In this document: positions 1,317 to 19,335 of the stretch, piece after piece
Layout of the letters: the number at the start of each line of letters is the position of its first letter
Position numbering within the stretch: the stretch's first letter is position 1
Virus record (IMG/VR): IMGVR_UViG_3300043438_000397
Span: 1-20,910 of that record
Length of the DNA: 20,910 bases
DNA from: a virus
Strand: one strand, 5' to 3'
Made by a program: the position numbers and the translations under genes
The notes under the pieces: model-generated
The model's database searches: none
What the model was told of the DNA's origin: nothing
The model's input: only the letters and a program-made list of their open reading frames with translations

Positions 1317-1323
1317 ATAAATA
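1317..1323 (+). promoter_or_regulatory. late promoter core ATAAATA for the gp13-like gene
   Basis: ATAAATA ends 5 nt before the ATG at 1329. T4 late transcripts start about 5-7 nt after this element, so the predicted RNA would begin at or next to the start codon. No Shine-Dalgarno sequence lies between. The 14-mer TAAATAACAGTATG is repeated exactly in front of the gp17 gene. Confidence 0.65.
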
Positions 1324-1328
1324 ACAGT

Positions 1329-2087
1329 ATGAGCCAAATAGACCAATCCAAGCAAGAAGTTTTTAGTTATTGCAAAGCCATGCTGGGCGACGGCATGATT
1401 GATGTAGAACTAGATCCCGTACATTACGAAACTGCACTAAACAGAGCATTAGGCGTGTTTCGACAGCGTTCAGACAATGCTGTTGAAGAAAGTTATGCGT
1501 TTTTAACACTGAGAGAAAACCAGCAAGAATATATTTTGCCAAAAGAAGTACAACAGGTGCGACAGATATTTCGTAGATCAGTTGGTTCAAGAAGCGGCAA
1601 CGGCACAGGCGGCACAGTATTTGAGCCATTCAACATGGCCTATACCAACACCTATTTGTTGAGTTCAACAAATATGGGAGGACTACTGACCTACGAATTG
1701 TTCAGTGGTTATCAAGAATTAGTGGGCAAGATGTTTGGATCTTTCATCAATTTTACTTGGCAACCGCAGAGTCGCAAGATAATGATTCAACAGCGTCCTA
1801 GAGGCGACGAAGAAGTAATGTTATGGGTCTATAACACCAAGCCAGATTTTGCCATCATTGACGATACCTATGCTGGACAATGGATCAAAGATTATAGTTT
1901 GGCCAACTGCAAGATGATGCTAGGACAAGCCCGTGAAAAGTTTGCTCAAATTGCTGGACCTCAAGGCGGAAGCAGCCTAAACGGTGCAGCAATGAAAGCA
2001 GAAGCCACGGCTGAAATTGAAAAACTCACAGATGATTTGATAAAATTAGTACCAGGCGGCCAGGGATATACTTTTATTATAGGTTGA
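1329..2087 (+). CDS. gp13: gp13-like neck protein
   Basis: The 252-aa product resembles the gp13 neck protein of T4-like phages, which with gp14 forms the head-to-tail connector collar after DNA packaging. The N-terminus shows the family pattern of a short helix, then 'I.VELDP.HYE.ALNRAL..FRQRS' (about residues 24-47), then a beta segment ending in 'YILPKEVQQVRQIFRR' (about 67-83). The rest is mixed alpha/beta and ends in a Gly-rich tail; there is no signal peptide or membrane segment. T4 gp13 is about 309 aa, so this is a compact version. It pairs with the divergent gp14-like gene. The start is fixed by the late box 5 nt upstream. Its TGA stop (2085-2087) overlaps the -35 hexamer of the next gene's predicted promoter. 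Identification is from motif resemblance only. Confidence 0.6.
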   Translation: MSQIDQSKQEVFSYCKAMLGDGMIDVELDPVHYETALNRALGVFRQRSDNAVEESYAFLTLRENQQEYILPKEVQQVRQIFRRSVGSRSGNGTGGTVFEPFNMAYTNTYLLSSTNMGGLLTYELFSGYQELVGKMFGSFINFTWQPQSRKIMIQQRPRGDEEVMLWVYNTKPDFAIIDDTYAGQWIKDYSLANCKMMLGQAREKFAQIAGPQGGSSLNGAAMKAEATAEIEKLTDDLIKLVPGGQGYTFIIG

Positions 2088-2112
2088 CCGCAGCAATATT
2101 CTCCTGTATACT
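2084..2112 (+). promoter_or_regulatory. sigma70-like early promoter for the dNMP kinase
   Basis: TTGACC (2084-2089), a 17-bp spacer and TATACT (2107-2112) form a near-consensus host-type promoter. The predicted start is about 2118-2120, giving a leader of only about 14 nt that carries GGAG. The -35 overlaps the stop codon of the gp13-like gene. The same -35 hexamer and the same spacing occur in front of gp32. Confidence 0.65.
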
Positions 2113-2132
2113 TTATACAGTTGGAGAATATT
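2095..2132 (+). promoter_or_regulatory. hairpin that buries the kinase Shine-Dalgarno
   Basis: AATATTCTCC (2095-2104) is exactly complementary to GGAGAATATT (2123-2132). Inside it, TGTATA (2105-2110) pairs with TATACA (2114-2119), leaving a CTT loop and a 3-nt bulge. The stem holds about 16 base pairs and its 3' arm contains the Shine-Dalgarno GGAG (2123-2126), ending one base before the ATG at 2133. RNA reading through from the upstream late gene would form it. RNA starting at the internal promoter near 2119 would lack the 5' arm. Confidence 0.75.
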
Positions 2133-2789
2133 ATGATTATTGGAATTTGCGGTTTTATTGGCTCAGGAAAAGACACAGTTGCAGACTACCTAGTGAATTT
2201 TCACGAGTTCCGTAGAGAAAGTTTTGCATCAACTCTTAAAGATGCAGTGGCAGCAGTTTTTGGCTGGGATCGAGTCATGCTCGAAGGCCGTACCAAAGAA
2301 GCTAGAGAATGGCGCGAGCAGGTTGATCCATGGTGGGCCGCTAGACTTGATATGCCTACATTGACTCCGAGATGGGTGTTGCAATACTGGGGTACTGAAG
2401 TTTGTCGTAAGGCATTCCACGATGATATCTGGATTTCTAGCCTAGAAAACAAACTGCGTAACAGTCGAGATAATATTGTTATTTCAGATTGCAGATTCCC
2501 CAATGAAATTGAATCACTAAAACGTGCAGGAGGCAGCATTGTTTGGGTACAAAGAGGCATACTGCCTACCTGGTATGCAGATGCAGTTAGTGCTAATCAA
2601 GGCAACAATGTGGGATTGAATGCCATGAAAATGCGCAAGATACACGCCAGCGAGTGGGCTTGGCTAGGTAGTGATTTTGATGTGGTCATTGACAACAACA
2701 GTACTATTGATGATCTTTACAGACAGTCAGCCAGTCTAGTAGTCAGCGACAAGATCGCCCTGTCGCCAAGTGATTCCTTCTTTGCCTAG
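2133..2789 (+). CDS. gp1: deoxynucleoside monophosphate kinase (T4 gp1-like)
   Basis: The 218-aa product has a P-loop near the N-terminus (GFIGSGKDT, residues 7-15) followed by the dNMP-kinase-type 'ESFASTLKDAVAAVFGW' segment, a 'LQYWGTEVCRK..HDDIW' segment (about 84-100) and 'VISDCRFPNE' (about 116-125). These match the T4 gp1/phage deoxynucleotide monophosphate kinase family, which phosphorylates dNMPs to dNDPs to supply phage DNA synthesis. The usual family length is 220-250 aa. ATG 2133 is chosen over an in-frame TTG at 2121 because GGAG (2123-2126) lies 6 nt upstream of it, inside the would-be longer coding part. An early-function gene is thus embedded among late structural genes, with its own sigma70-like promoter and an SD-masking hairpin. 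Its last 54 nt overlap the convergent HNH-like gene. Confidence 0.85.
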   Translation: MIIGICGFIGSGKDTVADYLVNFHEFRRESFASTLKDAVAAVFGWDRVMLEGRTKEAREWREQVDPWWAARLDMPTLTPRWVLQYWGTEVCRKAFHDDIWISSLENKLRNSRDNIVISDCRFPNEIESLKRAGGSIVWVQRGILPTWYADAVSANQGNNVGLNAMKMRKIHASEWAWLGSDFDVVIDNNSTIDDLYRQSASLVVSDKIALSPSDSFFA

Positions 2790-3071
2790 TATTTGAGCAC
2801 AGTTTGAACACACAGTTTTTAAATTGTTATGACGACAGTTGTCTAGATTGCCGTCCATATGAAATACTTTAAAAACTTCTTTGTGGGCGCAACGAAATCC
2901 ACATTTGTCGCATTGATTTTTAATTCGATACCCGGAGCGATACCATCTAGGAATACCAAAACCTAGACCATTAGCCATGCAGATTTCGCACAGGCTTCGA
3001 TAATAGATCTTGTTGTTCTTTTTATAGTTAACAGCACGGGGTCTAGAACCGCATTTACACAAAGGTCTCAT
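2736..3071 (-). CDS. HNH-type zinc-binding protein, possible endonuclease
   Basis: The 111-aa protein is rich in paired cysteines: CKC near residue 5, CEIC (about 28-31), CDKCGF (about 54-59) and C..C near residue 90. The C-terminal half reads 'FHMDGNLDNCRHNNLKTVCSNC', the beta-beta-alpha-metal core of HNH nucleases, in which the H-DGN...NNL..LC..C pattern carries the catalytic and zinc residues. A canonical 'HH' doublet is replaced by FH, so activity is uncertain. Such small free-standing HNH genes in T4-like phages are often mobile nicking enzymes. The gene runs against its neighbours and overlaps the kinase 3' end by 54 nt. That it is real is supported by its cysteine pattern and by a TAAATA box exactly 5 nt before its ATG. 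It could also be a zinc-ribbon DNA-binding protein. Confidence 0.7.
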   Translation of the reverse strand: MRPLCKCGSRPRAVNYKKNNKIYYRSLCEICMANGLGFGIPRWYRSGYRIKNQCDKCGFRCAHKEVFKVFHMDGNLDNCRHNNLKTVCSNCAQILGKEGITWRQGDLVADY

Positions 3072-3076
3072 ATAGT

Positions 3077-3082
3077 TATTTA
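3077..3082 (-). promoter_or_regulatory. late promoter core for the HNH-like gene
   Basis: The minus strand reads TTAAATAA with TAAATA ending 5 nt before the ATG at 3071, the same spacing as at the plus-strand late genes. No Shine-Dalgarno sequence is present, so a leaderless mRNA is predicted. Confidence 0.55.
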
Positions 3083-3146
3083 AAAGAAGTAAGCCTTTTC
3101 AGCCCCTTTGCCATCTTGTATATCCTGGGGTTTTTTTGTGATGGCG

Positions 3147-3153
3147 CTAAATA
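3147..3153 (+). promoter_or_regulatory. late promoter core CTAAATA for the sheath gene
   Basis: CTAAATA lies 34 nt upstream of the sheath ATG. A start about 5-7 nt downstream gives a leader of roughly 29 nt that holds a clear Shine-Dalgarno AGGAGA (3175-3180), 7 nt before ATG 3188. The abundant sheath thus has a proper leader, unlike most late genes in this window. Confidence 0.6.
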
Positions 3154-3187
3154 ATAGTACATTGATTTAACCCTAGGAGACAGTCGA

Positions 3188-6100
3188 ATGGCACTAACAT
3201 CACCAGGCGTAGAAGTACAAGTAATTGACGAGAGTTTTTATACTCCAGCTGAACCAGGTACGGTTCCGTTAATTGTTGTAGCCACTGCTGAAAACAAAAT
3301 AAACGGAGCTGGCACAGGCACAGCTTCAGGTACCACTGCAGCCAATGCAGGCAAGGTATTCAAAATGACCAGTCAACGAGAACTTGTTGACACATTTGGT
3401 TCACCGTTCTTTGAAAAGACAGTATCGGCTAGTCCTATACACGGTGGCGAAAGAAACGAATACGGTCTACTAGCTGCTTACAGCTTGTTGGGCGTTTCAA
3501 ATTCTGCATTTATCCTACGTGCAGATATCAACCTAAATGAATTAGAAGGTCAAACAGATGCACCGGGAGCGGATCCAGCTGACGGCAAGTGGTGGGTAGA
3601 CACACAAACTACTACTTGGGGAATCAACGAATGGAATGGCTTGGCATTAGCAGACAGCGGTCAAAAATTTACTGCTAAAACCCCATTGGTACTCACAGAC
3701 GCTGATCTTGACAACATCAACAGCAATGCTCCAAAAACATCGGTAGGCACAATAGGTGATTATGCTGTGGTGTTTCAAACAGCCGCAGGCGACGGAACAT
3801 TTTTAGCTGATGATGAACTGGTAAGAATGTACTACAAGAGTGCAGGCAATGCCACTGCTGGTATCACAGCCGGTACATGGGTACTAGTTGGTAGTCCTAA
3901 CTGGACAGCTAGTCATCCCACAGCATTCAGTTCTGCAGCAGTGACTGGTACATTATCAGGTACATTGATTATCAATGACGTAAGCATCACAGTGGGTGTT
4001 AGTCTTGCTGCCTGTCTTTCCAGCATCAATACTCTAATGAACGGCAGCGGTATCACAGCCACTGTCAGCAACAACAGATTGTATCTATACAGCGACGGTA
4101 CTTCCACAGCCACAGACGGTGATTCCACTGCGACCGCAGGCGGAACAGGTAGTATTGTTATCAGTGGAACAGCACTGGGTACTGGTACTGGTAAATTGAA
4201 CATTGTTGCCGGCACATATATGTGCCCAGTACTTGCCCAACAACCACACACCAGCATACCGTTGTTTAAGAGATCAGATTTTGGATCTACTGTAAATGCT
4301 CGTCCTACAGGTTCTGTATGGTTAAAAACAACTGAGCCAAACAACGGATCTCGTTGGAGAGTAAAACGTTACAATCAAACTACTGATTCGTGGATGGCTA
4401 ATGAAGCACCCCTGTATGCAACCCCGCACTCTGCACTATACTTTCTAGATAAATCCGGTGGCGGCGCAAATCTTCCTAAAGATGCATTATTTGTACAAAC
4501 AAATGCTAGAGAAGATGCAGGATCATATTCTGCTACCACTGGGGCAGTGAATGGTTTTGATGCCATGGATGAAACATTGGCTACTACTACATTTAGATTG
4601 TGGAAAAGAGCAGCCAGCGGCACAACTGCAATTAAATCTAAAATTGTTACTACAGGCACACTGAGTGCAATATCAAGAACTTTCACAATCAAACAGTCAA
4701 TTGTTGGCGATGCGGCACTAAGTGCAGCAAGTACATTTACATTTACAGCAGCAGCTACAGCCGATGATGCATTCACTATTGCAGGATTGATTAATGGTGC
4801 TAACTATGTTGACAGTGCTGGCGATGCTATCACAAATAATGTAGTGGCCAGTGTTACTACCAATAACGAATTGGTACTCACACACAAGACAGGTGGCGAC
4901 ATTAGACTAACTGATGTCACAGGCACTTGTATTGGTACATTGTTTGCAGCCTACAATCTAGCAACAGGTGCTGGAACTAGTAATTTCTATGCATTGTCAA
5001 GTGGGTTGGCCACAGGTGCACCAGAAAGTTATTTGGCTTCTTTGTGGATCCCACTGGTCAATGATGTGTTTGCCGCTACCCCAGATGCTCCATTAGAAGA
5101 ACCAGCAGATGGTCAACTATGGTATAATCCTGCGTTTGGCGATGTGGATCTAATGATACACAATGGCACAACCTGGGTAGGTTATCAAAACTTTACAGGA
5201 TACACTGGTACTGATCCTGAAGGGCCGATTGTATCTGCTTCAATGCCAGAAACACAAACTGACAGTACTGCACTAGTCAGCGGTGACATTTGGATCAGCA
5301 CAGCTGATCTAGAAAATTTCCCAAGCATATACAAATTCAATCCTGATGCAGGTACAAAACTTGCACAAAAATGGGTATTAGTTGACAAGACTGATCAAAC
5401 TACAGAAGAAGGTGTTTTATTTGCAGATGCTCGTGCAGGTACTACCGGTGGATCAGCTACTGCTGCACCCACTGGATCAATCAAAGACTTGTTGACCAAC
5501 AACTTCTTAGATCCAGACTCGCCAGATCCAGATCTATATCCCAAGGGTATGTTGCTATGGAACCTACGTAGAAGTGGTGGAAATGTCAAGAAATACAACA
5601 ATGGTTATATTGACACCACAGCAGACAACGAAAGACAATCTGGATCACCTAGTATGGAAGCATACTGGCCAGATCGTTGGACCACAGCTAGTCCTAACAA
5701 TGAAGATGGTTCAGGCAGCTTTGGTCGCAAGGCACAAAGATCAGCTGTGGTTGCTGCACTAAAGAGTGCTATTGACACCAGCGAAGAAGCACGTGACGAA
5801 GAACGCAGAAACTTCAATATAATTGCTTGCCCTGGATATCCAGAAGCACTTAGCAATTTGATCAACTTGAATCTGGATCGCAAGGTCACAGCTTTTGTGG
5901 TTGGCGATACACCATTGCGTCTAAAGAGCGATGCAACAAGCCTAACAACCTGGGGTACCAACGCTAACCTAGCACTGGACAACGGAGACAACGGTATTGT
6001 TACCTATGACGAATATGCAGCGGTTTATTATCCAAATGGATTTACCACTGATCTTACAGGTGCTAACGCTGTGGTTCCGGCCAGTCACATGATGCTGAGA

Positions 6101-6661: not shown

Positions 6662-6668
6662 ATAAATA
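6662..6668 (+). promoter_or_regulatory. late promoter core ATAAATA for the tube gene
   Basis: ATAAATA begins four bases after the sheath stop codon. The predicted leader of about 14 nt contains CGGAG, 9 nt before the ATG at 6689. The tube can therefore be transcribed on its own as well as with the sheath. Confidence 0.6.
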
Positions 6669-6688
6669 CAATATCGGAGCATAAGACA

Positions 6689-7324: not shown

Positions 7325-7340
7325 TTAATACCGTAACTCT

Positions 7341-7369
7341 AAAAAGCCCGAATTATTCGGGCTTTTTTT
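7341..7369 (+). terminator. intrinsic terminator after the tube gene
   Basis: AAAAAGCCCGAA (7341-7352), a TTA loop and TTCGGGCTTTTT (7356-7367) form a 12-bp stem followed by more T residues. It ends the sheath-tube transcription unit and lies just ahead of the next late promoter box at 7374-7380. Confidence 0.9.
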
Positions 7370-7373
7370 ATGC

Positions 7374-7380
7374 ATAAATA
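7374..7380 (+). promoter_or_regulatory. late promoter core ATAAATA
   Basis: ATAAATA ends 5 nt before ATG 7386 and starts a few bases after the terminator T-tract. No Shine-Dalgarno sequence is present, so a leaderless mRNA is predicted. Confidence 0.65.
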
Positions 7381-7385: not shown

Positions 7386-8468
7386 ATGACTAGTAAGTTA
7401 ACAAGATTTTTAAATAACATTGACCGTGGACCCAAAGGTGTAGTTGGTAATTTTCAACACGCCACAAGAATATTTGTTGACAACAATTATCGCCTGGCCC
7501 CTAGAACAAAATTTCTTTATTATGCTGTATTTACAGGAGCAGAAAGAGAAGTCAGCCTGTTGATCAAATCTACAGATTTGCCTAAATTTAATTTTGATAT
7601 GGCCAATAAGAATGTGTATAATCGTACCAAACAGATTTATAAGAAAATAAATTACGAACCTATTAATCTAACATTTCATGACGATAATGCTGGTCTCATG
7701 CATTCTATGTATTCGGCCTACTATTCACATTATGCCTATGACGGAGGAAACGAACAAGGCAACCATCCCATGAGTCTTCTGAATTATTCTGGAGCATATG
7801 GAATGGGCTTTGCTACTCCTGTAAACTTTTTTAGAAAAATAGCATTATATACTCTGAGTAGACAGAGATTCAACGGATATGAACTGCTGGCACCAAGAAT
7901 CAAATCTTGGTCGCACGGACAGGTAGATTATACTGCAAACGAAAGTTTAGATAACACAATGACTGTTGAGTACGAAGGTGTAAGGTATCTTTCAGGCAGT
8001 GTGGCCTACGGAAAACCCGATGGTTTTGCAAGCCTATCGTATGATGTTGAACCAAGTCCCAATGTCTTGGGAGCAAGACTGGGACTAGGAAATGTGCTCG
8101 GTCCATTTGGAGATATACTAGGTGGCGTCGAGTCTGTATTCGGCGATGTAACCAAAAAGAATATATTGAAGAATCCAGGCGGATTTATAACTACAGCAAT
8201 TTCTCAAATTAATACCTATAAAAACAACGGGGGTCAATTCCCCACAGTGGATGGAGTTATTGGAGAATTTAAAAATCCTGCAAATATTTTAACAGCGGCC
8301 AACACCGTTGGCGGTATAGTAGGAGCCAGTTTTCCTAAAATAGGAGCAGCATTAGGATCTATTGTAGCTACCACTGCCACTAAAAAAGTTTTGCAAACGC
8401 AGGCCGCTAATAATACATTCCCACAGTCATCTGGTAGTACTAACGAAAGTCCAGGTGAATTTCCATGA
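7386..8468 (+). CDS. tail-tube-fold structural protein, gp54/gp19-like
   Basis: The 360-aa product has an N-terminal half that reads like a tube-fold protein: 'TKFLYYAVFTG' strand, 'LLIKSTDLPKFNFD' (the T4 gp19/gp54 'V...P...' strand), 'NRTKQIYKKINYEPINLTFHDD' and, at about residues 170-205, 'PRIKSWSHGQVDYTANESLDNTMTVEYEGVRY', which matches the closing beta-sheet of gp19/gp48/gp54. In T4, gp54 is the baseplate protein that starts the tube. The C-terminal 150 residues are Gly/Ala/Asn-rich and look flexible, unlike T4 gp54. Placement right after gp18 and gp19 fits a tail role. An alternative is a marine-specific second tube or baseplate-hub protein. The ATGA overlap with the next gene implies coupled translation. 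Confidence 0.6.
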   Translation: MTSKLTRFLNNIDRGPKGVVGNFQHATRIFVDNNYRLAPRTKFLYYAVFTGAEREVSLLIKSTDLPKFNFDMANKNVYNRTKQIYKKINYEPINLTFHDDNAGLMHSMYSAYYSHYAYDGGNEQGNHPMSLLNYSGAYGMGFATPVNFFRKIALYTLSRQRFNGYELLAPRIKSWSHGQVDYTANESLDNTMTVEYEGVRYLSGSVAYGKPDGFASLSYDVEPSPNVLGARLGLGNVLGPFGDILGGVESVFGDVTKKNILKNPGGFITTAISQINTYKNNGGQFPTVDGVIGEFKNPANILTAANTVGGIVGASFPKIGAALGSIVATTATKKVLQTQAANNTFPQSSGSTNESPGEFP

Positions 8469-8836
8469 GCACAATTAATTTACCAGAAGTTGCAAAAACA
8501 GACAGTGCTGCAAGTACAAAATTATTTTTTGATACCTACGGCCAACGACCTTTGGAATTTGGAGCCAATGAAGTTACTGCCAGTATAGGATTTTTTACAG
8601 GTAGGGGATTTGAAGAGGAAGCTGCCATGACCACAGCCATGACCATACTGCGTCAGGCCAAAATAGATGGCGTCCAAGTTTTTGAAATACTGGATACCCT
8701 AAAAGACCTCAACGGCACACAACTCAGTGCAGTGGTAGCACAGATTCTCAACAAATATCGCCCCAACACATCTTCATTGGGATTTAGAGCTCTGAACGTT
8801 ATCAAGATAAATCAAACTAGAAACATTTTACCATAA
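8465..8836 (+). CDS. conserved T4-like phage protein of unknown function
   Basis: The 123-aa protein has no signal peptide or membrane helix. The central part, 'ASIGFFTGRGFEEEAAMTTAMTILRQAKIDGVQVFEILDTLKDLNG', is predicted helical and resembles a small protein that recurs near tail genes in marine T4-like phages. The remaining sequence ends in 'SSLGFRALN', then a basic tail. Its start overlaps the stop of the tube-fold gene (ATGA) and its own stop overlaps the start of gp4 by one base (TAATG), so it is translated in a tight chain with them. That suggests a stoichiometric part of the virion or its assembly, but no activity can be assigned. Confidence 0.8.
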   Translation: MSTINLPEVAKTDSAASTKLFFDTYGQRPLEFGANEVTASIGFFTGRGFEEEAAMTTAMTILRQAKIDGVQVFEILDTLKDLNGTQLSAVVAQILNKYRPNTSSLGFRALNVIKINQTRNILP

Positions 8837-9273: not shown

Positions 9274-9279
9274 TAAGTA
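9274..9279 (+). promoter_or_regulatory. variant late promoter core TAAGTA
   Basis: ATAAGTA differs by one base from the common core but ends exactly 5 nt before ATG 9285, as at the other leaderless late genes. It overlaps the end of gp4. The spacing match is the main support. Confidence 0.4.
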
Positions 9280-9284: not shown

Positions 9285-9773
9285 ATGACAAAGAAACTTG
9301 AAGAATTATTCAATTTAGACGACAAACAGATAAATGTTGTGCCTAAGTCTATCAACGAAGAATTAGTAGAAAAAGCTACAGAAGTAAAAACACTAGATGA
9401 AAGCATTGAAGCTGTTAATCAAATTACTAAAAATTTGCCGCAGATAAGTGAATTAAATGATCTAAATGACAACGAGTTGGACAATCTTGCTAGTAAAGCA
9501 GAAAAAGCCTACGACGATCTAATGGATCTAGGTATGAATGTTGAAGTTCGTTACAGCGGCCGGATATTTGAAGTAGCAAGCAGTATGATGGGTAATGCTA
9601 TTACAGCAAAAGCAGCAAAGATTGATAAAAAGCTAAAAGCTATAGATTTACAATTAAAAAAATACAAGATTGACAAAGACAATAACGAAGATCCAAATGA
9701 CGTAATCAATGGACAAGGGTATGTAATTACAGATCGCAACGAGCTCATTAAAAAATTAAGCGGCAAAGCATAA
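9285..9773 (+). CDS. gp16: terminase small subunit
   Basis: The 162-aa protein has the length of T4 gp16 (164 aa) and resembles cyanophage gp16: an N-terminal 'LEELFNLDD' segment, a Glu-rich helix, then 'LPQISELNDLNDNELDNLASKAEKAYDDLMDLGMNVEVR' in pieces and a central helical hairpin 'IFEVASSMMGNAITAKAAKIDKKLKAIDLQLKKYKID' that forms the oligomerising coiled coil in this family. gp16 rings regulate the gp17 motor and bind the DNA end to be packaged. Unlike T4, where gene 16 directly precedes 17, four ORFs lie between them here. It follows gp4 by 11 nt; no Shine-Dalgarno sequence is seen, and its TAA is part of the next promoter box. Confidence 0.78.
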   Translation: MTKKLEELFNLDDKQINVVPKSINEELVEKATEVKTLDESIEAVNQITKNLPQISELNDLNDNELDNLASKAEKAYDDLMDLGMNVEVRYSGRIFEVASSMMGNAITAKAAKIDKKLKAIDLQLKKYKIDKDNNEDPNDVINGQGYVITDRNELIKKLSGKA

Positions 9774-9776
9774 ATA
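9770..9776 (+). promoter_or_regulatory. late promoter core ATAAATA
   Basis: ATAAATA overlaps the TAA stop (9771-9773) of the small terminase gene and ends 5 nt before ATG 9782. No Shine-Dalgarno sequence is present. Confidence 0.65.
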
Positions 9777-11924: not shown

Positions 11925-11946
11925 GTAGCATAAAAAATACAAAACC
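11925..11946 (+). repeat. direct repeat R1, copy 2
   Basis: This copy of the stop-codon region at 11615-11637 again reads GTA GCA TAA in the same frame relation, then A-rich sequence. It may be a relic of a second copy of the 126-aa gene's 3' end. Confidence 0.7.
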
Positions 11947-11974
11947 AAATAGGCTCTTCGGAGCCTATTTTTTT
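11947..11974 (+). terminator. intrinsic terminator upstream of gp17
   Basis: AAATAGGCTC (11947-11956), a TTCG tetraloop and GAGCCTATTT (11961-11970), followed by more T residues, form a textbook terminator. It isolates the head-protein unit from gp17, whose promoter box follows four bases later. Confidence 0.93.
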
Positions 11975-11977
11975 CAG

Positions 11978-11983
11978 TAAATA
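11978..11983 (+). promoter_or_regulatory. late promoter core TAAATA for gp17
   Basis: TAAATA ends 5 nt before ATG 11989. It lies in the same 14-mer (TAAATAACAGTATG) that precedes the gp13-like gene. There is no Shine-Dalgarno sequence. Confidence 0.65.
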
Positions 11984-13578: not shown

Positions 13579-13584
13579 TAAATA
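13578..13584 (+). promoter_or_regulatory. late promoter core ATAAATA
   Basis: ATAAATA overlaps the gp17 stop codon and ends 5 nt before ATG 13590. The spacing fixes that ATG rather than the in-frame TTG at 13575 as the start. Confidence 0.65.
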
Positions 13585-13589: not shown

Positions 13590-15584
13590 ATGGATGCAAC
13601 AAACAATATTGCCACTGATCTATTCTACAAAATACGTAGTAGATTTTCTGGCCTAAAATTAGGCAACGACACAGGTGCTATCACTATCAATCCCGAAGAA
13701 GCAAGATTCTTTGATTTTGATTACAAAGACGGCGAAGCAGCTATTGGTCATGTAAGTATTAGCCTGGCGGAGGATAATTCTATTAAAGTTTATTTCAGTA
13801 CAGGAATAACAGAAAGCATGGATACCTTACAGAAAGAAGGCTGGTATGGATTCTTAAAAGAATTACGGTTGTTTGCCAAAAGAAGATTAATGAGTTTTGA
13901 TACTAGAGATATTGCCAAAGACAATCTAGATCGTAGAGACTTTGAGTTTTTAAGTCAATACAATGCACCAAAACAATCACAACCAAATACACCCCCCACC
14001 GTTGGAGAATCAATTATGAGCGAAAGCGCAATGTATGGCAGCAAGAACGTCAGCTTCCAAAAATTAATGGACACACGTTTAATCATCAAACACAGCAAGG
14101 CAGTTATGGACGACACTGCCCCTGGTAGTAGAACAAGAAACATCGGTGCATTGTTTGTGGAAAATCAAGACGGTGAAAGATTTAAATATCCTTTTATCCA
14201 CCTAGCTGGTGCTCGTGCTATGCAACGTCACGTAGCCAATGGCGGATTGCCCTATGACGAACTTGGAAAAAGCATTGTTGGTATGAGTGAAGAAATTGCG
14301 CAACTAAAAAGTTTTGAAAGTTATGTTGTGCGCAATGATCTAATGAATTCAATGAACAACTCTATTGTAGAACGATCATCACAATATCTAAATGGACTAA
14401 GAGAACAAATCAAAGCACTGGCCAAGCAAGGCCATTACGAGGCATACAAAGAAAATTTCCAGGCAATGGAACCCTTAGAGATTCCACAAGACGTAGTAGA
14501 ACAGTACACAGATCAATTTACAGTAAGAAATTTCAAAGAAGATATCAAATCAGTATTTCCTGTTCTATATAGAATAATGAAAGAAAACGAAATAGGCTAT
14601 GACGACATAGTCGAAATGACGCAACCAGACGTAGTAGAAAACGAGGTTGCTGCAAATTACAACGATCCATTTGCTAGGTTTGAAACTTGGGCAATGGGAC
14701 TAGGCGAAGCTAGTGCAATTGCTAGCGAAGATCAAGAAGAAAAATCAGCAGCAGTAAGAGAATTACAAGAATTAGTAGGACAACATTTTCCAGCAGGTGT
14801 AGATGGCACAAACGCTATCGAAAGCCTTAAAGGCATAATTGAAGATCCACAATTGTTTCAAGAAATTAAAGAACAATCAAAACAAGATCCAGACAGCTGT
14901 GTAAGAGGTCTGATAAAAGAATGGTTAGAGCAAAATGCGCCCGATACTCTAGAACAATTAGACTTCGGAGATTTTGTTCCACCAGAAGGTGAAGCGCCGG
15001 CGACTGACCAAGGGGGTGATATAACAGCGCCAGAAGCACCACAAGAGGGATCCGATGGTCCAAATAAAAGCGATGTTCCTGCTTTTATGCGAAAAGCCAA
15101 AGGTGACGATGATTGGAAAATGAGCACCAAGGATATGGATGACGAACAAACAAAATCGCCAACCAGTTCCGCTGGGCTAGCACGTAGAAAACAAGAACTA
15201 GGTATGGGGGAAGCTGATACTGAACCATCTAAAAAAGATGATGACGACAATTCTCCTCCTTGGGATGCAGATGATGAAAAGTCAAATTTTAAAAAGCCCA
15301 ACAATCCTAACAGAACAGGCCGAGATAGTGCTAGAGCATTAGCACAGCGAGGCATGCAGTCTAAAATGGATGTTCAAGAGTTAGCAGAATTTGTTCATAC
15401 ATTTTATGATCGTGAATCAGGTACATTCCCTAAAGGCCCAGAAGGCGTTGCTATTATGGTAGGCAAGAAGTTTGGTGAACAAGCAGAAATGGTTGCTCGC
15501 AAAATGGTAGAAAGAATGGCACCACAACAGCAAGATCCGCAGATTGCAGAACTTGCTCGTATTAGAGAATTGGCAGGCTATTAA
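13590..15584 (+). CDS. large conserved phage protein of unknown function
   Basis: The 664-aa product is not assigned to a family. Visible parts are an N-terminal alpha/beta domain (about 1-125, with 'YFSTGITESMDTLQKEGWYGFLKELRLFAKRR'), a Gln/Pro/Thr linker (about 126-140), a second domain with 'RTRNIGALFVENQDGERFKYPFIHLAGARAMQRHVANGG' in pieces and a long helical part, an acidic low-complexity stretch (about 460-580), and a helical C-terminus ending 'IAELARIRELAGY'. It has no membrane segment. Late promoter and position after gp17 suggest a virion or packaging protein. An in-frame ATG at 14016 has its own GGAG (14004-14007) just after the linker, so a shorter 522-aa form may also be made. A terminator follows. 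Confidence 0.85.
   Translation: MDATNNIATDLFYKIRSRFSGLKLGNDTGAITINPEEARFFDFDYKDGEAAIGHVSISLAEDNSIKVYFSTGITESMDTLQKEGWYGFLKELRLFAKRRLMSFDTRDIAKDNLDRRDFEFLSQYNAPKQSQPNTPPTVGESIMSESAMYGSKNVSFQKLMDTRLIIKHSKAVMDDTAPGSRTRNIGALFVENQDGERFKYPFIHLAGARAMQRHVANGGLPYDELGKSIVGMSEEIAQLKSFESYVVRNDLMNSMNNSIVERSSQYLNGLREQIKALAKQGHYEAYKENFQAMEPLEIPQDVVEQYTDQFTVRNFKEDIKSVFPVLYRIMKENEIGYDDIVEMTQPDVVENEVAANYNDPFARFETWAMGLGEASAIASEDQEEKSAAVRELQELVGQHFPAGVDGTNAIESLKGIIEDPQLFQEIKEQSKQDPDSCVRGLIKEWLEQNAPDTLEQLDFGDFVPPEGEAPATDQGGDITAPEAPQEGSDGPNKSDVPAFMRKAKGDDDWKMSTKDMDDEQTKSPTSSAGLARRKQELGMGEADTEPSKKDDDDNSPPWDADDEKSNFKKPNNPNRTGRDSARALAQRGMQSKMDVQELAEFVHTFYDRESGTFPKGPEGVAIMVGKKFGEQAEMVARKMVERMAPQQQDPQIAELARIRELAGY
14004..14018 (+). 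promoter_or_regulatory. possible internal ribosome-binding site and start
   Basis: GGAG (14004-14007) lies 8 nt before an in-frame ATG (14016-14018, residue 143 of the 664-aa protein), at the boundary between the Pro/Gln linker and the second domain. Internal in-frame starts yielding a second product are known for phage genes. Since the main start lacks a Shine-Dalgarno sequence, this site could be efficient. Confidence 0.4.
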
Positions 15585-15604: not shown

Positions 15605-15628
15605 GGGCACTTAGGTGCCCTTTCTTTT
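15605..15628 (+). terminator. intrinsic terminator after the 664-aa gene
   Basis: GGGCAC (15605-15610), a TTAG loop and GTGCCC (15615-15620) are followed by TTTCTTTT. It closes the gp17 transcription unit. The remaining bases to 15718 hold an AT-rich TATATAT stretch (15668-15676) but no convincing -35/-10 pair. Confidence 0.85.
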
Positions 15629-15718
15629 GGCTAAATTGATTGTCAACGAATTCACAGGCTACCGCGTTATATATATGTAGGGGTAGAAATTCCTACTTAA
15701 CCAAAAGGAAACTTTAAA

Positions 15719-15952: not shown

Positions 15953-15953
15953 A

Positions 15954-16130
15954 TTTGATTTAGAAGACAGTGACCTCATAATAGACGATGAGGTCACTTA
16001 TGGCCGTAATCGACGAAGCGCAGAGTTTGGCAAGTTAGTTGAAGATGACGAACTATCAGACTATGTAAAGTTTAGATTATGGCTGGCTAGACAAAGAGCA
16101 ATGGCCAAATATAAAGAAGTCCATGGTTAA
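15954..16130 (+). CDS. small acidic conserved-looking ORF without a normal start
   Basis: An open frame immediately after the exported protein's stop encodes about 58 residues with natural composition: 'FDLEDSDLIIDDEVTYGR', 'SAEFGKLVEDDELSDYVKF' and 'RLWLARQRAMAKYKEVHG'. The charged helical end looks like a real phage protein. No ATG, GTG or TTG occurs in frame between 15953 and the conserved part; the frame is +1 relative to the upstream gene. Upstream, the same frame only mirrors the low-complexity gene. It may start at a rare codon such as ATA (15978 or 15981) or CTG, be reached by frameshifting, or reflect an indel in the assembly. The start given is only the beginning of the convincing stretch. 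A perfect 11-bp hairpin lies inside it. Confidence 0.5.
   Translation, partial: FDLEDSDLIIDDEVTYGRNRRSAEFGKLVEDDELSDYVKFRLWLARQRAMAKYKEVHG
15969..15998 (+). repeat. perfect 11-bp inverted repeat
   Basis: AGTGACCTCAT (15969-15979) and ATGAGGTCACT (15988-15998) pair perfectly around an 8-nt loop. It starts 16 nt after the stop codon of the exported protein and has no T-tract, so it is not an ordinary terminator. It may stabilise the upstream mRNA, affect recoding, or bind a protein as DNA. Confidence 0.8.
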
Positions 16131-16145
16131 GCCCTGGGCTTTTTT
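16129..16145 (+). terminator. weak intrinsic terminator
   Basis: AAGCC (16129-16133), a CTG loop and GGCTT (16137-16141) are followed by TTTT. The stem is only 5 bp and overlaps the stop codon of the preceding ORF. It separates this unit from the gp32 promoter region. Confidence 0.5.
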
Positions 16146-16181
16146 ATTGGCAAAATAAAATCAAAAATAAACAAAAAATCA

Positions 16182-16210
16182 TTGACCTTGCTAAATAAAA
16201 AGCGCATAAT
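16182..16210 (+). promoter_or_regulatory. sigma70-like promoter for gp32
   Basis: TTGACC (16182-16187), a 17-bp spacer and CATAAT (16205-16210) give a near-consensus host-type promoter with a start near 16217 and a leader of about 50 nt. The spacer contains a CTAAATA late-type box (16191-16197), so both early and late transcription of gp32 are plausible, as in T4. Confidence 0.7.
16191..16197 (+). promoter_or_regulatory. late promoter core CTAAATA upstream of gp32
   Basis: CTAAATA is identical to the box before the sheath gene. It lies 69 nt before the gp32 ATG, within the spacer of the sigma70-like promoter. Confidence 0.45.
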
Positions 16211-16224
16211 AACATATGTGCATA

Positions 16225-16261
16225 AGGCATATAAACATTTTAGGCATAACATAGGAGGCAT
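16225..16261 (+). repeat. AGGCAT repeats in the gp32 leader
   Basis: AGGCAT occurs at 16225-16230, 16242-16247 and 16256-16261; the last overlaps the strong Shine-Dalgarno AGGAGG (16253-16258), 8 nt before ATG. The leader is A/T-rich and looks poorly structured. T4 gp32 represses its own translation by binding such a leader, so this could be the autoregulatory site. Confidence 0.5.
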
Positions 16262-16266
16262 TTAAA

Positions 16267-17268
16267 ATGGCAACTCTCGCAGAAATCCGTGCAAAACTTC
16301 AAGAAGCACAATCAAAGTCCACAGGACAATCCACAGGCGGTGGAGACAACGCAATTTACCCACATTGGAATATGCAAGAAGGCAAAGAAGCGGTTATCCG
16401 TTTGCTACCCGATGGCAATTCAGCCAATACGTTTTTCTGGGTAGAACGTGCAATGATCAAATTGCCGTTCGCAGGCATCAAAGGTGAAACAGATTCACGA
16501 GCCGTGCAGGTACAGGTTCCTTGTGTAGAAATGTACAACGACGGTACAGCCTGTCCGATCCTGACAGAAGTTCGTGGCTGGTTTAAAGACAAGGCTCTGG
16601 AAGAAATGGGTCGTAAGTATTGGAAGAAGCGTTCATACATCTTTCAAGGGTTTGTGGTAGAAGATCCTATTAAGGAAGATAGAATTCCAGAGAATCCTAT
16701 CCGTCGATTCATTATCGGTCCACAGATTTATCAAATTATCCGTTCAGCACTGATGGATCCAGAGTTGGAAGAATTGCCAACTGACTACATGCGTGGCGTT
16801 GACTTCCGTATTGCTAAAACTAGCAAAGGTGGTTTTGCTGACTACTCTACCTCAAAGTGGAGCCGTCGTGAACGTGCAATTGCCGATGCAGACAAAGCAG
16901 CAATTGAACAGTTTGGATTACATAATCTCAGCGACTTCTTGCCCAAGAAGCCAACAGACGTCGAGCTCAAGGTCATGAAAGAAATGTTTGAAGCGTCAGT
17001 TGACGGTGAAGCATATGATATGGATCGTTGGGGTCAATACTTCAAACCAGCAGGTATGGGTCAAGCAACAGGTGATCCCAATAAAGCTGCCGCACCACGT
17101 GCCGCAGTAGCCGCTCCAGTAGCCGCAGCCGAAGAAGATGCTCCTTGGGAAGAGCCTGCTACTCCAGCAGTAAAGGCAGCAGCACCAGCAGCATCAGCAG
17201 CACCTACTGGTGAAAGTGCAAGTCGTGCGCAAGATATTCTTGCGATGATTCGTAACCGTCAAAAGTAA
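16267..17268 (+). CDS. gp32: single-stranded DNA-binding protein
   Basis: The 333-aa product (T4 gp32: 301 aa) coats single-stranded DNA in replication and recombination. Features: an N-terminal basic helix ('LAEIRAKLQEAQ') for cooperative self-binding; an OB-fold core with 'YPHWNM...AVIRLLPDG', 'FFWVERAMIKLPF', 'RKYWKKRSYIFQGFVVEDP', 'NPIRRFIIGPQIYQII' and 'DYSTSKWSRRERA'; then a long Ala/Pro-rich linker and an acidic patch 'EEDAPWEEP' before a final helix 'RAQDILAMIRNRQK'. The T4 zinc site seems reduced: C86 and C96 keep the T4 Cys77/Cys87 spacing, but Leu99 and Gly73 stand where T4 has Cys90 and His64. It is driven by its own promoter, has a very strong Shine-Dalgarno, and precedes uvsX and a uvsY-like gene, its recombination partners. 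Confidence 0.95.
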   Translation: MATLAEIRAKLQEAQSKSTGQSTGGGDNAIYPHWNMQEGKEAVIRLLPDGNSANTFFWVERAMIKLPFAGIKGETDSRAVQVQVPCVEMYNDGTACPILTEVRGWFKDKALEEMGRKYWKKRSYIFQGFVVEDPIKEDRIPENPIRRFIIGPQIYQIIRSALMDPELEELPTDYMRGVDFRIAKTSKGGFADYSTSKWSRRERAIADADKAAIEQFGLHNLSDFLPKKPTDVELKVMKEMFEASVDGEAYDMDRWGQYFKPAGMGQATGDPNKAAAPRAAVAAPVAAAEEDAPWEEPATPAVKAAAPAASAAPTGESASRAQDILAMIRNRQK

Positions 17269-17281
17269 ATCGTTGTAGACA

Positions 17282-17307
17282 AGAGTACGAGCCCGCGCTC
17301 GTACTCT
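17282..17307 (+). terminator. strong hairpin after gp32, terminator or processing site
   Basis: AGAGTACGAGC (17282-17292), a CCGC loop and GCTCGTACTCT (17297-17307) pair perfectly over 11 bp. The following CTTTCATTTC is only moderately T-rich, so it may attenuate rather than stop transcription, allowing more gp32 than UvsX to be made. Confidence 0.65.
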
Positions 17308-17329
17308 CTTTCATTTCAGGAGAATAATA

Positions 17330-17539
17330 ATGGCAAGAGTACAAAAAATTAATGAGAACTTCTCTCTAAGTTTTAACAGCAGAGAAGACCAAACAGGCGA
17401 TACAGTAGCAGACATTGATGTTAGATTTGACAACCCCAAGGATGATTCTGTTATAATTAATAGATTAAACACTTGGCTTATAGCAATTGGTCGTACTGAC
17501 ATTGTTGTAAGTCCAAAGAAACTACCAAAGGGTGAATAA
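17330..17539 (+). CDS. small protein of unknown function upstream of uvsX
   Basis: The 69-aa product has an N-terminal strand pattern ('KINENFSLSFNSRE'), an acidic 'DTVADIDVRFDNPKDDS' segment, a helix 'VIINRLNTWLIAIG' and a basic end. No family is recognised. Shine-Dalgarno AGGAG (17319-17323) precedes the ATG. Its TAA overlaps the uvsX ATG (TAATG), so the two are translationally coupled; a small regulator or accessory to the recombinase is possible but unsupported. Confidence 0.7.
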   Translation: MARVQKINENFSLSFNSREDQTGDTVADIDVRFDNPKDDSVIINRLNTWLIAIGRTDIVVSPKKLPKGE

Positions 17540-18618
17540 TGGCAAAAGCATTCGATATCAGTAAATTTAGAAAGTCAATTACTAAATCTATCGACGGTTT
17601 AAGTATTGGCTTCAACGACCCAACAGACTGGGTCAGTACAAACAACTACGCATTAAACTATCTTATCAGTGGATATTTTGATCGTGGTATTCCACTAGGC
17701 AAGGTAACTGTGTTTGCGGGTGAAAGTGGTGCAGGTAAAAGTTTTATCTGTTCAGGTAATCTAGTCAAGAACGCACAAGCACAGGGCATTTATCCTATCT
17801 TGATTGATACAGAAAATGCGCTAGATGAAAAATGGTTACACGCTCTCGGAGTTGATACAAGTCCAGACAAGTTGTTAAAACTTAACATGGCCATGATTGA
17901 TGACGTGGCAAAGACTATCACAGAGTTTATTGCAGAATACAAAACAATGGATGAAGCAGATCGTCCCAAGATCTTGTTTATCATAGACAGCTTAGGTATG
18001 CTGTTGACGCCTACAGACGTTAATCAGTTCCAAGCTGGTGATATGAAAGGTGATATGGGCCGTAAGCCTAAGGCATTGACAGCACTGGTTCGCAACTGTG
18101 TTAATATGTTTGGCGCCTACAACATTGGTATGGTATGTACCAATCACACCTACGCAAGTCAAGATATGTTTGATCCAGATGACAAGATCTCCGGTGGACA
18201 AGGTTTCATCTACGCAAGTTCGATCGTTGTTGCTATGCGTAAATTAAAATTGAAACTTGATGCAGACGGCAACAAGACTACAACTGTACAAGGTATTCGT
18301 GCAGCTTGTAAGATTATGAAAACTCGTTATGCAAAGCCGTTTGAAAGTGTACAGGTTGAGATTCCTTATGAAACAGGTATGAGTCCATACAGTGGATTAG
18401 TCGACTTGTTCGAAGCCAAAGGTCTGCTCAAGAAGGAAGGTAATAGTCTTGTCTACACTACCAAAGACGGTGAGATCATCAAGCAGTTCCGCAAGGCCTG
18501 GGAACGCAACGAAAAAGACGGTCTCGACATTGCAATGGCAGACATTTCTAAACACGGTGAAATTTCCACTTCTGAGATAACTACTACAGTTGAACCAGAC
18601 TTGGAGGTCACTGAATGA
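17539..18618 (+). CDS. uvsX: RecA-like recombinase UvsX
   Basis: The 359-aa product matches T4 UvsX (about 390 aa): Walker A 'GESGAGKS' (61-68), the 'LIDTENALDEKWLHALGVD' segment with the catalytic Glu (E92), Walker B 'ILFIID' (145-150), DNA-binding loop region 'DMKGDMGRKPKALTAL', and 'GMVCTNHTYAS' and 'ISGGQGFIYASSIVV' strands. It forms filaments on gp32-coated single-stranded DNA and performs strand invasion for recombination-dependent replication and repair. The C-terminus is acidic, a typical interaction tail. It overlaps the gene before it by one base (TAATG) and the gene after by four (ATGA), forming a recombination operon with a UvsY-like gene two positions downstream. Confidence 0.96.
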   Translation: MAKAFDISKFRKSITKSIDGLSIGFNDPTDWVSTNNYALNYLISGYFDRGIPLGKVTVFAGESGAGKSFICSGNLVKNAQAQGIYPILIDTENALDEKWLHALGVDTSPDKLLKLNMAMIDDVAKTITEFIAEYKTMDEADRPKILFIIDSLGMLLTPTDVNQFQAGDMKGDMGRKPKALTALVRNCVNMFGAYNIGMVCTNHTYASQDMFDPDDKISGGQGFIYASSIVVAMRKLKLKLDADGNKTTTVQGIRAACKIMKTRYAKPFESVQVEIPYETGMSPYSGLVDLFEAKGLLKKEGNSLVYTTKDGEIIKQFRKAWERNEKDGLDIAMADISKHGEISTSEITTTVEPDLEVTE

Positions 18619-18845
18619 AAGAAGATTTAATTGCAGATATTTGGACATTGGTGTTAGAACACATTCCTGAGAAACATCGTAAAGATGTGGCAGCAGATTT
18701 TGTTAATACACTAATAGATTATGGTATCAAAGAAAGCGTACTTGACGGCCTCAAAGGTGTTGACACATATCTTGATACTGCAATTGATTATGCAATTGAC
18801 GGAGAAGAGATTGAGGATGAAGATAGTTACGAAGATGAGGAATAA
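18615..18845 (+). CDS. small acidic protein between uvsX and uvsY-like genes
   Basis: The 76-aa product has helices 'LIADIWTLVLEHIPEKHRKDVAADFVNTLIDYGIKESVLDGLKG' in pieces and a strongly acidic C-terminus ('EEIEDEDSYEDEE'). A similar small protein follows uvsX in several marine T4-like phages, as recalled, with no known role. It overlaps uvsX (ATGA). The acidic tail might contact DNA-binding partners such as gp32 or UvsX; that is inference. Confidence 0.8.
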   Translation: MKEDLIADIWTLVLEHIPEKHRKDVAADFVNTLIDYGIKESVLDGLKGVDTYLDTAIDYAIDGEEIEDEDSYEDEE

Positions 18846-19301
18846 ATGAATTGGTACGATCGTGTTTCTAAAGATATCTCAAATATCCCAGATGCTGTGG
18901 CCTATTATGAAGCTGAATTAATTCATGCAAAACAAGATGTCCGTGTAGCAGGAAACATTGAAAAAGCCTCTGCACAGATGCCTGGCATTGTAGAAAATCG
19001 ATTTAACCAACTTCAAGAAATTGAAGGTATTTTAGAATATCTCAATATCGAACTTCGTAGACTCCGCAGTCAACACTTTCGCAAGTATCTTGAAACCTAT
19101 CAACGTCAGTTAAGCTCTAGAGACTGTGAAAAGTTTGTCGAAGGCGAAGCTGATGTTGTTGATTTCGAAAAGATTATCAATGATTTTGCCTTGCTACGCA
19201 ACAAATGGTTGGGCATTATCAAGGCTCTAGACATAAAACAATGGCAGTTAAGCAATATTGTAAAACTACGTACAGCTGGCCTAGAAGACGCCAGTCTTTA
19301 A
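18846..19301 (+). CDS. uvsY: UvsY-like recombination mediator
   Basis: The 151-aa product (T4 UvsY: 137 aa) is mostly helical, with a long coiled-coil-like middle ('NRFNQLQEIEGILEYLNIELRRLRSQHFRKYL' in parts) and a C-terminal 'LRNKWLGIIKALDIKQWQLSNIVKLRTAGLED' stretch whose pattern resembles the end of T4 UvsY ('...ALDAIKSRGFAIKHIQDMRAFEAG'). UvsY loads UvsX onto gp32-covered DNA. ATG follows the previous stop directly, with GAGGA (18837-18841) as ribosome-binding site. Its place behind gp32 and uvsX supports the call. The rest of the protein diverges, so a marine-specific recombination protein remains possible. Confidence 0.6.
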   Translation: MNWYDRVSKDISNIPDAVAYYEAELIHAKQDVRVAGNIEKASAQMPGIVENRFNQLQEIEGILEYLNIELRRLRSQHFRKYLETYQRQLSSRDCEKFVEGEADVVDFEKIINDFALLRNKWLGIIKALDIKQWQLSNIVKLRTAGLEDASL

Positions 19302-19307
19302 ATACTG

Positions 19308-19313
19308 TATAAT
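19308..19313 (+). promoter_or_regulatory. isolated TATAAT -10 element
   Basis: A perfect TATAAT lies 7 nt after the uvsY-like stop, and 21 nt before the next ATG. No good -35 lies at 16-18 bp and no MotA-type box is evident, so its use is uncertain. Confidence 0.35.
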
Positions 19314-19315
19314 AT

Positions 19316-19335
19316 ATGCAGATAAATATCTGCAT
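19316..19335 (+). repeat. 20-bp palindrome over the late box and start codon
   Basis: ATGCAGATA (19316-19324), AA and TATCTGCAT (19327-19335) form a perfect 9-bp inverted repeat. It contains the TAAATA box (19323-19328) and the first two bases of ATG 19334. It could be an operator or chance; an RNA starting upstream would also form a hairpin that hides the start codon. Confidence 0.7.
19322..19328 (+). promoter_or_regulatory. late promoter core ATAAATA
   Basis: ATAAATA ends 5 nt before ATG 19334, the recurring late spacing. This fixes 19334 rather than the in-frame ATG at 19316 as the start. Confidence 0.55.

Follow-up and report, generated by a model that had tools for sequence, protein, structure and literature searches.

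The Window and Its Genes

The IMG/VR virus record IMGVR_UViG_3300043438_000397 is a 20,910-base fragment of an uncultivated T4-like phage, and the stretch analyzed here (the window) is the whole of that record, which has the same length. This report concerns a short element in it, the hexamer TAAATA, the core of a TATAAATA-like octamer, which repeatedly stands five nucleotides (N5) before the ATG of a gene, and the kind of mRNA that such a placement would give. A first-pass annotation of this DNA had predicted from the spacing that the late mRNAs of the phage are leaderless, and we followed that prediction in the window, in its relatives, and in named phages. The large terminase (gp17) of the window shares 53% identity with its counterpart in Pseudomonas phage PA5oct and 51% with that in Sinorhizobium phage Phosso, both jumbo phages, and the close relatives of the window are uncultivated contigs with lengths of up to 364 kb. 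Megablast of the window against phages gave no match, a gp17 search of genome contigs aimed at a host link found no relative, and Pfam gave no match for eight of the ten window proteins tried. The genes that could be named are the following.

1329-2087, plus strand: head-tail adaptor-like gene
3188, plus strand: tail sheath gene
6689, plus strand: tail tube gene
7386, plus strand: second tail-tube-like gene
8836: head closure gene
9285, plus strand: weakly small-terminase-like gene (E 0.00065)
9782 and 13590, plus strand: virion structural protein genes
11989, plus strand: large terminase gp17
16267, plus strand: gp32 or gp32-like gene
17539: UvsX
18846: UvsY

Near-Start Elements in the Window

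The eight starts for which N5 spacing had been reported all bear it, seven of them exactly (1329, 7386, 9782, 11989, 13590, and 19334 on the plus strand and 3071 on the minus strand) and the eighth, 9285, as TAAGTA-N5-ATG. A Shine-Dalgarno (SD) sequence, taken throughout as AGGA, GGAG, or GAGG, is absent from the 18 bases before the ATG at all eight (0/8), as had been claimed, and the SD sequences described at 3188, 6689, and 16267 are likewise present. A ninth near-start site had been overlooked, namely TAAATA-N7-ATG at a minus-strand gene starting at 1295. The window holds 18 copies of TAAATA on its two strands, 7 of which lie exactly at N5; the 3188 and 6689 starts also have one, 34 and 20 nt upstream, with the SD sequence in between. 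The elements are given below with the gap to the ATG in orthologues, for which the motif was TAAATA or TAAGTA and the window was included where it matches.

1303..1308, minus strand: TAAATA, N7, divergent gene start at 1295; gap 7 also in the large relatives G001 and G002
1318..1323, plus strand: TAAATA, N5 before ATG 1329; gap 5 in 22/22, window included
3077..3082, minus strand: TAAATA, N5 before ATG 3071; gap 5 in 41/41 records, window included
7375..7380, plus strand: TAAATA, N5 before ATG 7386; gap 5 in 56/60 and gap 4 in 1/60, the remaining 3/60 having a misplaced alignment start
9274..9279, plus strand: TAAGTA, N5 before ATG 9285; gap 4 (44) or 5 (23), in total 67/67
9771..9776, plus strand: TAAATA, N5 before ATG 9782; gap 5 in 67/67
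11978..11983, plus strand: TAAATA, N5 before ATG 11989 (gp17); gap 4-5 in 73/79, none within 40 nt in 6
13579..13584, plus strand: TAAATA, N5 before ATG 13590; gap 4-5 in 71/81, the other 10/81 apparently one codon out of register
19323..19328, plus strand: TAAATA, N5 before ATG 19334, inside a palindrome at 19316-19335; gap 5 in 15/31, in 14 more after the register was mended, none in 2
3148..3153, plus strand: TAAATA 34 nt before sheath ATG 3188, leadered; gap 31-34 in 34/42
3175-3179, plus strand: SD sequence AGGAG of sheath gene 3188
6663..6668, plus strand: TAAATA 20 nt before tail-tube ATG 6689, leadered; gap 19-23 in 24/60, no TAAATA or TAAGTA within 40 nt in 36/60
6675-6679, plus strand: SD sequence CGGAG of tail-tube gene 6689
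16253..16258, plus strand: SD sequence AGGAGG of gp32-like gene 16267, no TAAATA within 40 nt

The gap is thus held at 4-5 nt in orthologues although the letters of the spacer vary (25 distinct upstream sequences among the 41 records of the gene at 3071, all with gap 5), so that distance is conserved more than sequence, and the suggestion that promoter-to-start distance is under constraint is supported. The start at 19334 is the conserved one, given that relatives such as L016 lack the in-frame ATG that the window has at 19316.

Several side observations attach to these sites. The divergent elements at window 1293-1331 lie 9 bp apart, with the start codons 1295 and 1329 separated by 33 nt, and their G001 counterparts are directly adjacent, as TATTTATAAATA. 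Before 9285, the orthologues have TAAGTA and never TAAATA in 22/22 distinct sequences listed (the best 22 of 32), perhaps a promoter of different strength. The promoter at 19323 falls within the perfect palindrome ATGCAGATA-AA-TATCTGCAT (window 19316-19335), a possible operator or structure, and GCAGATAAATATCTGC is found again in several 19334 orthologues; the protein of 19334-20089 has two fused domains, one cytidylyltransferase-like and one of the mannose-6-phosphate isomerase/cupin kind, and is followed at 20059 by a glycosyltransferase-8-like gene. The minus-strand gene at 2736-3071, between a kinase-like gene and the sheath gene, encodes 111 aa, is present in 41 records, and has no match in PHROG or Pfam.

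One alternative is that the N5 excess is due to chance or to the counting of near-identical loci. Against chance, 1000 dinucleotide shuffles of the window gave a mean exact N5 count of 0.356 and a maximum of 4, none reaching seven, and the best count at any gap of 0-30 never exceeded 5; a search tolerating one mismatch gave a smaller excess, 19 N5 sites against 10.7 expected (100 shuffles, maximum 18). The artefact concerns the set of 80 loci found with gp17 (1.17 Mb), many of which are close relatives: TAAATA stands before an ATG 364 times at gap 5 and 0 to 57 times at each other gap from 0 to 39, with counts of 84-131 at individual gaps for control hexamers too (TTAAAA 131 at gap 0), owing to homologous sites repeated in this redundant set. 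For this reason de-duplicated and single-contig counts were used. When sites are de-duplicated on the opening 60 bases of each gene, 193 remain at gap 5 against 15 at gap 4, a cyanophage control has 2 at gap 5, and scans of single contigs keep the peak; the further peaks of ATAAAT (223 at gap 6) and AAATAT (148 at gap 4) in the 80 loci arise because these hexamers have bases in common with TAAATA sites. Shuffles, hexamer ranking (below), de-duplication, and single contigs together speak against chance and close-relative artefact, to which we attach a negligible probability.

Two Modes of Placement in the Large Contigs

The two large relatives of the window, G001 (353 kb) and G002 (364 kb), show how the element is placed genome-wide. 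Open frames with TAAATA at gap 4 or 5 number 31 in G001 and 25 in G002, those at gaps 9-15 only 5 and 3, and a second hump follows at 16-34; the lower edge, between N3 and N4, is sharp in both. SD sequences divide along the same line: among sites at gap 3-8 (near-start) they occur in 0/46 in G001, 1/29 in G002, 2/17 in Pelagibacter phage HTVC008M, and 1/19 in phage XacN1, and among sites at 16-34 nt (leadered) in 25/43, 25/50, 10/19, and 17/61, so that G001 and G002 combined have 1/75 near-start vs 50/93 leadered. When all hexamers at gaps 0-39 before ATGs opening at least 80 codons are ranked, TAAATA at gap 5 comes first by enrichment in G001 (17 vs 0.6), G002 (14 vs 0.38), and HTVC008M (12 vs 0.56), outranking the SD sequences in each, and TAAATA at gap 5 or 4 is the top pair in G023 and in the stretches read of G011 and G012 (200 kb from each, at 57-59% GC).

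Start codons at N4-5 in G001 and G002 together are 55 ATG, 0 GTG, 0 TTG, and 1 CTG, which fits the AUG preference of leaderless translation reported for E. coli and Caulobacter, GUG being accepted by some bacteria (PMC9031893; here and below, PMC numbers refer to excerpts of the papers). The base before the ATG is a pyrimidine more often at near-start than at leadered genes, in 39/45 vs 23/43 in G001 (p 0.0009), 24/29 vs 28/50 in G002 (p 0.026), 29/32 vs 20/34 in G023, and 14/18 vs 11/17 in G011, as expected at a transcription start site.

These data bear on where transcription would begin. The T4 late promoter is TATAAATA at -13 to -6 (PMC1524935); it ends five bases before +1, so N5 puts +1 on the A of the ATG. 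Were the element a promoter with its start 1-4 nt upstream of the ATG, leaders would be very short rather than absent. Gaps of 6-8 nt at 14 ATG sites in G001 and 5 in G002 speak for this, and start choice at bacterial promoters varies by a few nucleotides; the N3/N4 lower edge and the pyrimidine before the ATG in G001 and G002 favor +1 on the A itself. We consider such short leaders very unlikely, and they are in any event functionally near leaderless.

Variation around the motif adds some detail. G012 (L605-L614), a 500-kb contig, favors gap 4 (30) over gap 5 (7), and C often precedes its TAAATA; spacing and motif may shift together there, perhaps with gp55. Of the two positions preceding TAAATA in G001 and G002, the one adjoining it has a mild preference for A (51-59%) and the other has none. 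The hexamer is itself rarer than Markov expectation, at 0.67 of expected in G001, 0.38 in G002, and 0.59-0.78 in T4, PA5oct, S-PM2, and HTVC008M, though not in XacN1; avoidance of stray promoters and avoidance of in-frame TAA are candidate reasons. In XacN1 (L178-L197) the strongest hexamer-gap pair is TATAAT at gap 27 (18 vs 0.77), a class of fixed-spacing sigma-70-type promoters beside TAAATA-N5; a search for relatives of this phage found none.

Hairpins and Divergent Pairs

Two of the near-start promoters in the window directly follow a terminator-like structure.

7341..7369, plus strand: terminator-like hairpin with a T run, its end 5 nt upstream of the 7386 promoter element (folding energy of 7330-7374, -16.6 kcal/mol)
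11947..11970, plus strand: terminator-like hairpin of 10 pairs immediately ahead of the gp17 promoter (folding energy of 11930-11977, -13.9 kcal/mol)

The first was seen in the sequence and is not in the hairpin listing that has the second. By eye, among the sequences listed, hairpins also stand directly before the near-start promoters of four G001 and three G002 genes. Divergent near-start pairs leave no space for leaders: to the 1295/1329 pair of the window HTVC008M adds 18916/18943, where two outward-facing TAAATA elements at N5 have four bases between them.

Such arrangements count against the idea that translation of these genes relies chiefly on longer RNAs initiated farther upstream, with TAAATA-N5 being not a promoter but an AT-rich, SD-less context or a TAA stop followed by restart. 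Initiation in AT-rich contexts that lack an SD sequence is known in general, several sites lie closely behind an upstream gene, the TAA of the 9771..9776 element is the stop codon of the gene preceding 9782, and in the PA5oct orthologue of 9285 only 2 nt separate TAAATA from the ATG, too short a gap for a start on the AUG. Against it stand the terminator-like hairpins before 7386 and 11989, and the divergent pairs have no upstream gene at all; TAAATA also occurs 20-34 nt upstream together with an SD sequence (sheath, tube) and 21-32 nt upstream in orthologues of sister phages, and the exact hexamer is the top pair even at 57-59% GC. Stop codon plus restart is ruled against by the hairpins and divergent pairs, and the longer-transcript explanation as a whole seems to us improbable.

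Spread among Phages

Counts of spread were de-duplicated over loci gathered around gp17 of named phages, with S-PM2 as negative control. Loci near Phosso gp17 have 108 sites at gap 5 and 0-14 at other gaps, with at least two near-start sites in 57/80; loci near PA5oct gp17 have 67 at gap 5, 35 at gap 7, and 0-18 at the remaining gaps, with at least two in 48/80. Loci near the HTVC008M protein have 18 at gap 5 and 16 at gap 6 (at least two sites in 16/70, none in 31), and those near cyanophage S-PM2 have 2 at gap 5.

In a gp17 tree built by a quick method (61 rows from 332 proteins, de-duplicated at 85%, loci with less than 7 kb around gp17 dropped), near-start sites number two or more at 32 loci of a 38-row clade (SH-aLRT 99), one at 3, and zero at 3; L390, another locus with at least two, lies outside it, and no more than one site is found in any row around Phosso/Atu_ph07 or CBB/121Q. 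The leaderless label needs 8 changes on this tree, against a mean of 20.4 when shuffled (0/500 as low), a result to be read with the tree's long branches (XacN1) and an outgroup that is not on one side of a branch. G011 and G012 stand outside the 38-row clade and use the mode genome-wide, with 1 and 2 near-start sites, respectively, in the surroundings of gp17.

Whole-record counts of exact N5 matches against the reversed pattern extend this picture. They are 20 vs 5 in G001, 14 vs 4 in G002, 40 vs 0 in G011 (578 kb), 27 vs 0 in G012 (500 kb), and 30 vs 3 in G023; 30 vs 20 in G010 and 5 vs 2 in G013; and 2 vs 5 and 5 vs 1 in the cyanophage contigs G020 and G021. Among named phages, T4 has 10 vs 5, PA5oct 15 vs 12, Atu_ph07 15 vs 9, CBB 4 vs 10, RaK2 5 vs 17, XacN1 11 vs 1, and HTVC008M 14 vs 4. 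The stretches read of G013, Atu_ph07, Phosso, and CBB have no TAAATA-N5 peak, and G022, at 60 kb, has too few sites for ranking. Enrichment throughout the genomes of relatives, which the first-pass annotation had called for, was found, with N5 (and N4) standing out over other gaps and other hexamers, and the style does differ from that of T4, which has no N5 peak. Two parts of the proposal need amending: N4 is also used and prevails in one lineage (G012), and what had been called a genome-wide style is one of two modes, a similar number of TAAATA sites in G001 and G002 lying at 16-34 nt, about half of them with an SD sequence.

Genes Served and the Late Sigma Factor

In the window, TAAATA precedes the sheath, tube, gp17, and head/neck genes and is not found within 40 nt of gp32, UvsX, or UvsY. 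The SD sequence is kept by the sheath, tube, and capsid genes and is lacking from the terminase and several head/neck genes. Sheath and tube orthologues have it in the sequences shown, alongside the upstream promoter, and the capsid gene of G001, G002, and HTVC008M has it with no TAAATA in the 90 nt shown; in G004:C1:114681-115856 (L574), a major capsid gene match holds one internal TAA, for which an intron, a frameshift, and readthrough are candidates. Among more distant loci, near-start promoters are found at gp17 in 119/149, at 9285 in 67/87, at 13590 in 59/78, at 7386 in 14/22, at 8836 in 12/86, at UvsY in 1/70, and at the tube gene, gp32, and UvsX in 0/37, 0/132, and 0/102. The 9782 gene is near-start in 17/85 of these and has the promoter at least 16 nt upstream in 68/85, so it seems, judging from these sequences, to have switched mode inside the group. 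Phosso, Atu_ph07, 121Q, CBB, and PA5oct have TAAATA 21-32 nt upstream at the orthologues of 9782, 13590, or 1329, mostly with an SD sequence between, and no TAAATA in the 45 nt listed before their gp17 genes.

PHROGs were searched with G001 genes coding for 100 aa or more, 20/37 of the near-start and 10/35 of the leadered ones, with no window orthologue among the former. The coordinates of the G001 annotation come from a gene caller that rewards TAAATA at N4-6, which makes its start choices circular; no statistic depends on it. The description of the served genes as late is shown for those of the window but not for all, since the nameable near-start genes of G001 are mostly non-virion; in G001 the element also precedes a ribonucleotide reductase gene (gap 21).

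A gp55 homologue, which had been proposed as a check, is present in 6/7 larger relatives from the clade of the window (phrog_12791, E 1e-80 to 4e-77) and was not found in the 116-kb fragment G006. The accompanying expectation of gp33 and gp45 fared less well in this clade: matches were unconvincing, at E 0.003 and 0.006 for gp45 in 2/7 and E 0.04 for gp33 in 1/7. In HTVC008M, homologues of gp55, gp33, and gp45 were all found.

Interpretation

The motif, its spacing and conservation, the near-exclusive ATG, the lack of SD sequences, the bimodal placement, and the gp55 gene in relatives are direct observations. From them we infer the site of transcription start, dependence on gp55, translation by 70S ribosomes, and a role in dose. 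The explanation that we hold to be very probable is that, over a wide range of uncultivated phages, late promoters of the gp55 type are joined directly to start codons and yield leaderless mRNAs, the 5' ends being placed by the spacing. TAAATA would be the core of a T4-type late promoter read by RNA polymerase with a phage gp55-like sigma factor; with 4-5 nt (8 at most) between the element and the start codon, transcription would begin at the A of the AUG or no more than about 3 nt away from it, a large share of the genes with a late-type promoter in this phage and its relatives would have no leader, and 70S ribosomes would bind the 5'-terminal AUG.

A number of findings weigh against this explanation. 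On the side of the promoter, the gp33 and gp45 models have no solid match in the seven relatives from the clade of the window, and PA5oct, the nearest named phage by gp17, lacks the mode and has no near-start site in the tree. The start codons are less uniform than the N4-5 sites of G001 and G002 suggest: at N6-8, G001 has 14 ATG, 1 GTG, 1 TTG, and 3 CTG, and N4-5 starts are less ATG-exclusive in HTVC008M (13 ATG, 1 TTG) and XacN1 (10 ATG, 3 GTG, 1 TTG). The pyrimidine signal is weak in HTVC008M (15/17 vs 11/19, p 0.065) and absent in XacN1 (11/19 vs 30/61) and in G012 (17/38 near-start vs 7/14 leadered). Runs of five T just before TAAATA are similarly frequent in the two classes (near-start 6/45 in G001 and 4/29 in G002, leadered 4/43 and 6/50). 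Some near-start genes closely follow others and may also be read on longer RNAs, where the AAAAGG found about 13 nt before the ATG in many orthologues of the gene at 3071 could act as a poor SD sequence. Finally, the 20 near-start genes scanned in G001 comprise 9 with no family, 5 in unknown families, and 6 named, of which one is virion-like and others include a phosphoesterase, an oxygenase, a peptidase, and an HNH endonuclease.

Since the bulk virion genes (sheath, tube, capsid) keep their SD sequences, the two modes may set protein dose, abundant proteins retaining the SD sequence, a suggestion drawn from these three kinds of gene. A more far-reaching version, to which we would give a rather low probability, is that one late sigma factor drives two translational classes across uncultivated T4-like jumbo phages, SD-led bulk virion proteins and leaderless low-copy parts, with the promoter-AUG gap as the switch; the leaderless class would be tuned to the state of ribosomes late in infection (70S-favoring and perhaps phage-modified), and promoter position would set both dose and timing.

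Significance and Comparison with Known Systems

T4-type late transcription is a textbook system, and the present data indicate it as a source of leaderless mRNA in much of its uncultivated diversity, most of the cultured jumbo relatives examined being without the mode and XacN1 having a smaller peak. HTVC008M, which is cultured, allows a precise and cheap test; genes such as 9782 and its relatives offer a natural comparison of leaderless and SD-led forms of one gene; and a near-start element pins start codons, an aid to annotation.

Late mRNAs of Thermus phages are leaderless, and these, like lambda cI, would have the AUG at the 5' end as proposed here, from promoters that are not of the T4 late type. 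Lambda cI is named as a leaderless phage mRNA in PMC9031893, and phage transcripts in general are described as often leaderless (PMC5312081); leaderless late mRNAs in T4-like phages are not reported among the matches listed from the open-licence PMC literature, seen in excerpts, with subscription papers and preprints outside its scope. In Deinococcus, -10 motifs adjoining open reading frames give a leaderless design shown by experiment (PMC12340547), and the Deinococcus-Thermus case resembles ours in that a promoter element a few base pairs before the start codon exists beside a class with ribosome-binding sites; it differs in using the bacterial -10 element TANNNT at about 6-7 bp and the host sigma factor, whereas the window group uses the phage late-type element TAAATA at 4-5 nt.

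Closer to the window, the CBB/GAP32 jumbo phages, its distant relatives, have an ATAAATA motif before structural genes and a reported gp55 gene, gp33 and gp45 not being reported (PMC5259590), much as the models for these two proteins had no solid match in the clade of the window. Unlike the window, their 80 kb read has 0 sites at gap 4-8 and 17 at gap 16-34, 11 of these with an SD sequence. HTVC008M, whose gp17 is a distant kin of that of the window (30%), resembles it in having 12 sites at N5; a survey of pelagimyophages states that its late-promoter method failed (PMC7029224), and near-start placement may be one reason why late promoters went unfound in these phages. T4 itself, whose late promoters depend on gp55, gp33, and gp45 (PMC2988020, PMC1524935), has in common with the window the TAAATA core before virion and packaging genes and, in relatives of the window, the gp55 homologue; it differs in having no N5 excess (3 sites at gap 5 when 50 open codons are required), and before ATGs opening at least 80 codons TAAATA does best there at gap 28 (8 vs 0.61). 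What the window phage presents is neither a new promoter nor a new kind of mRNA but a new pairing, a phage late-type promoter fused to start codons, found across a broad uncultivated group.

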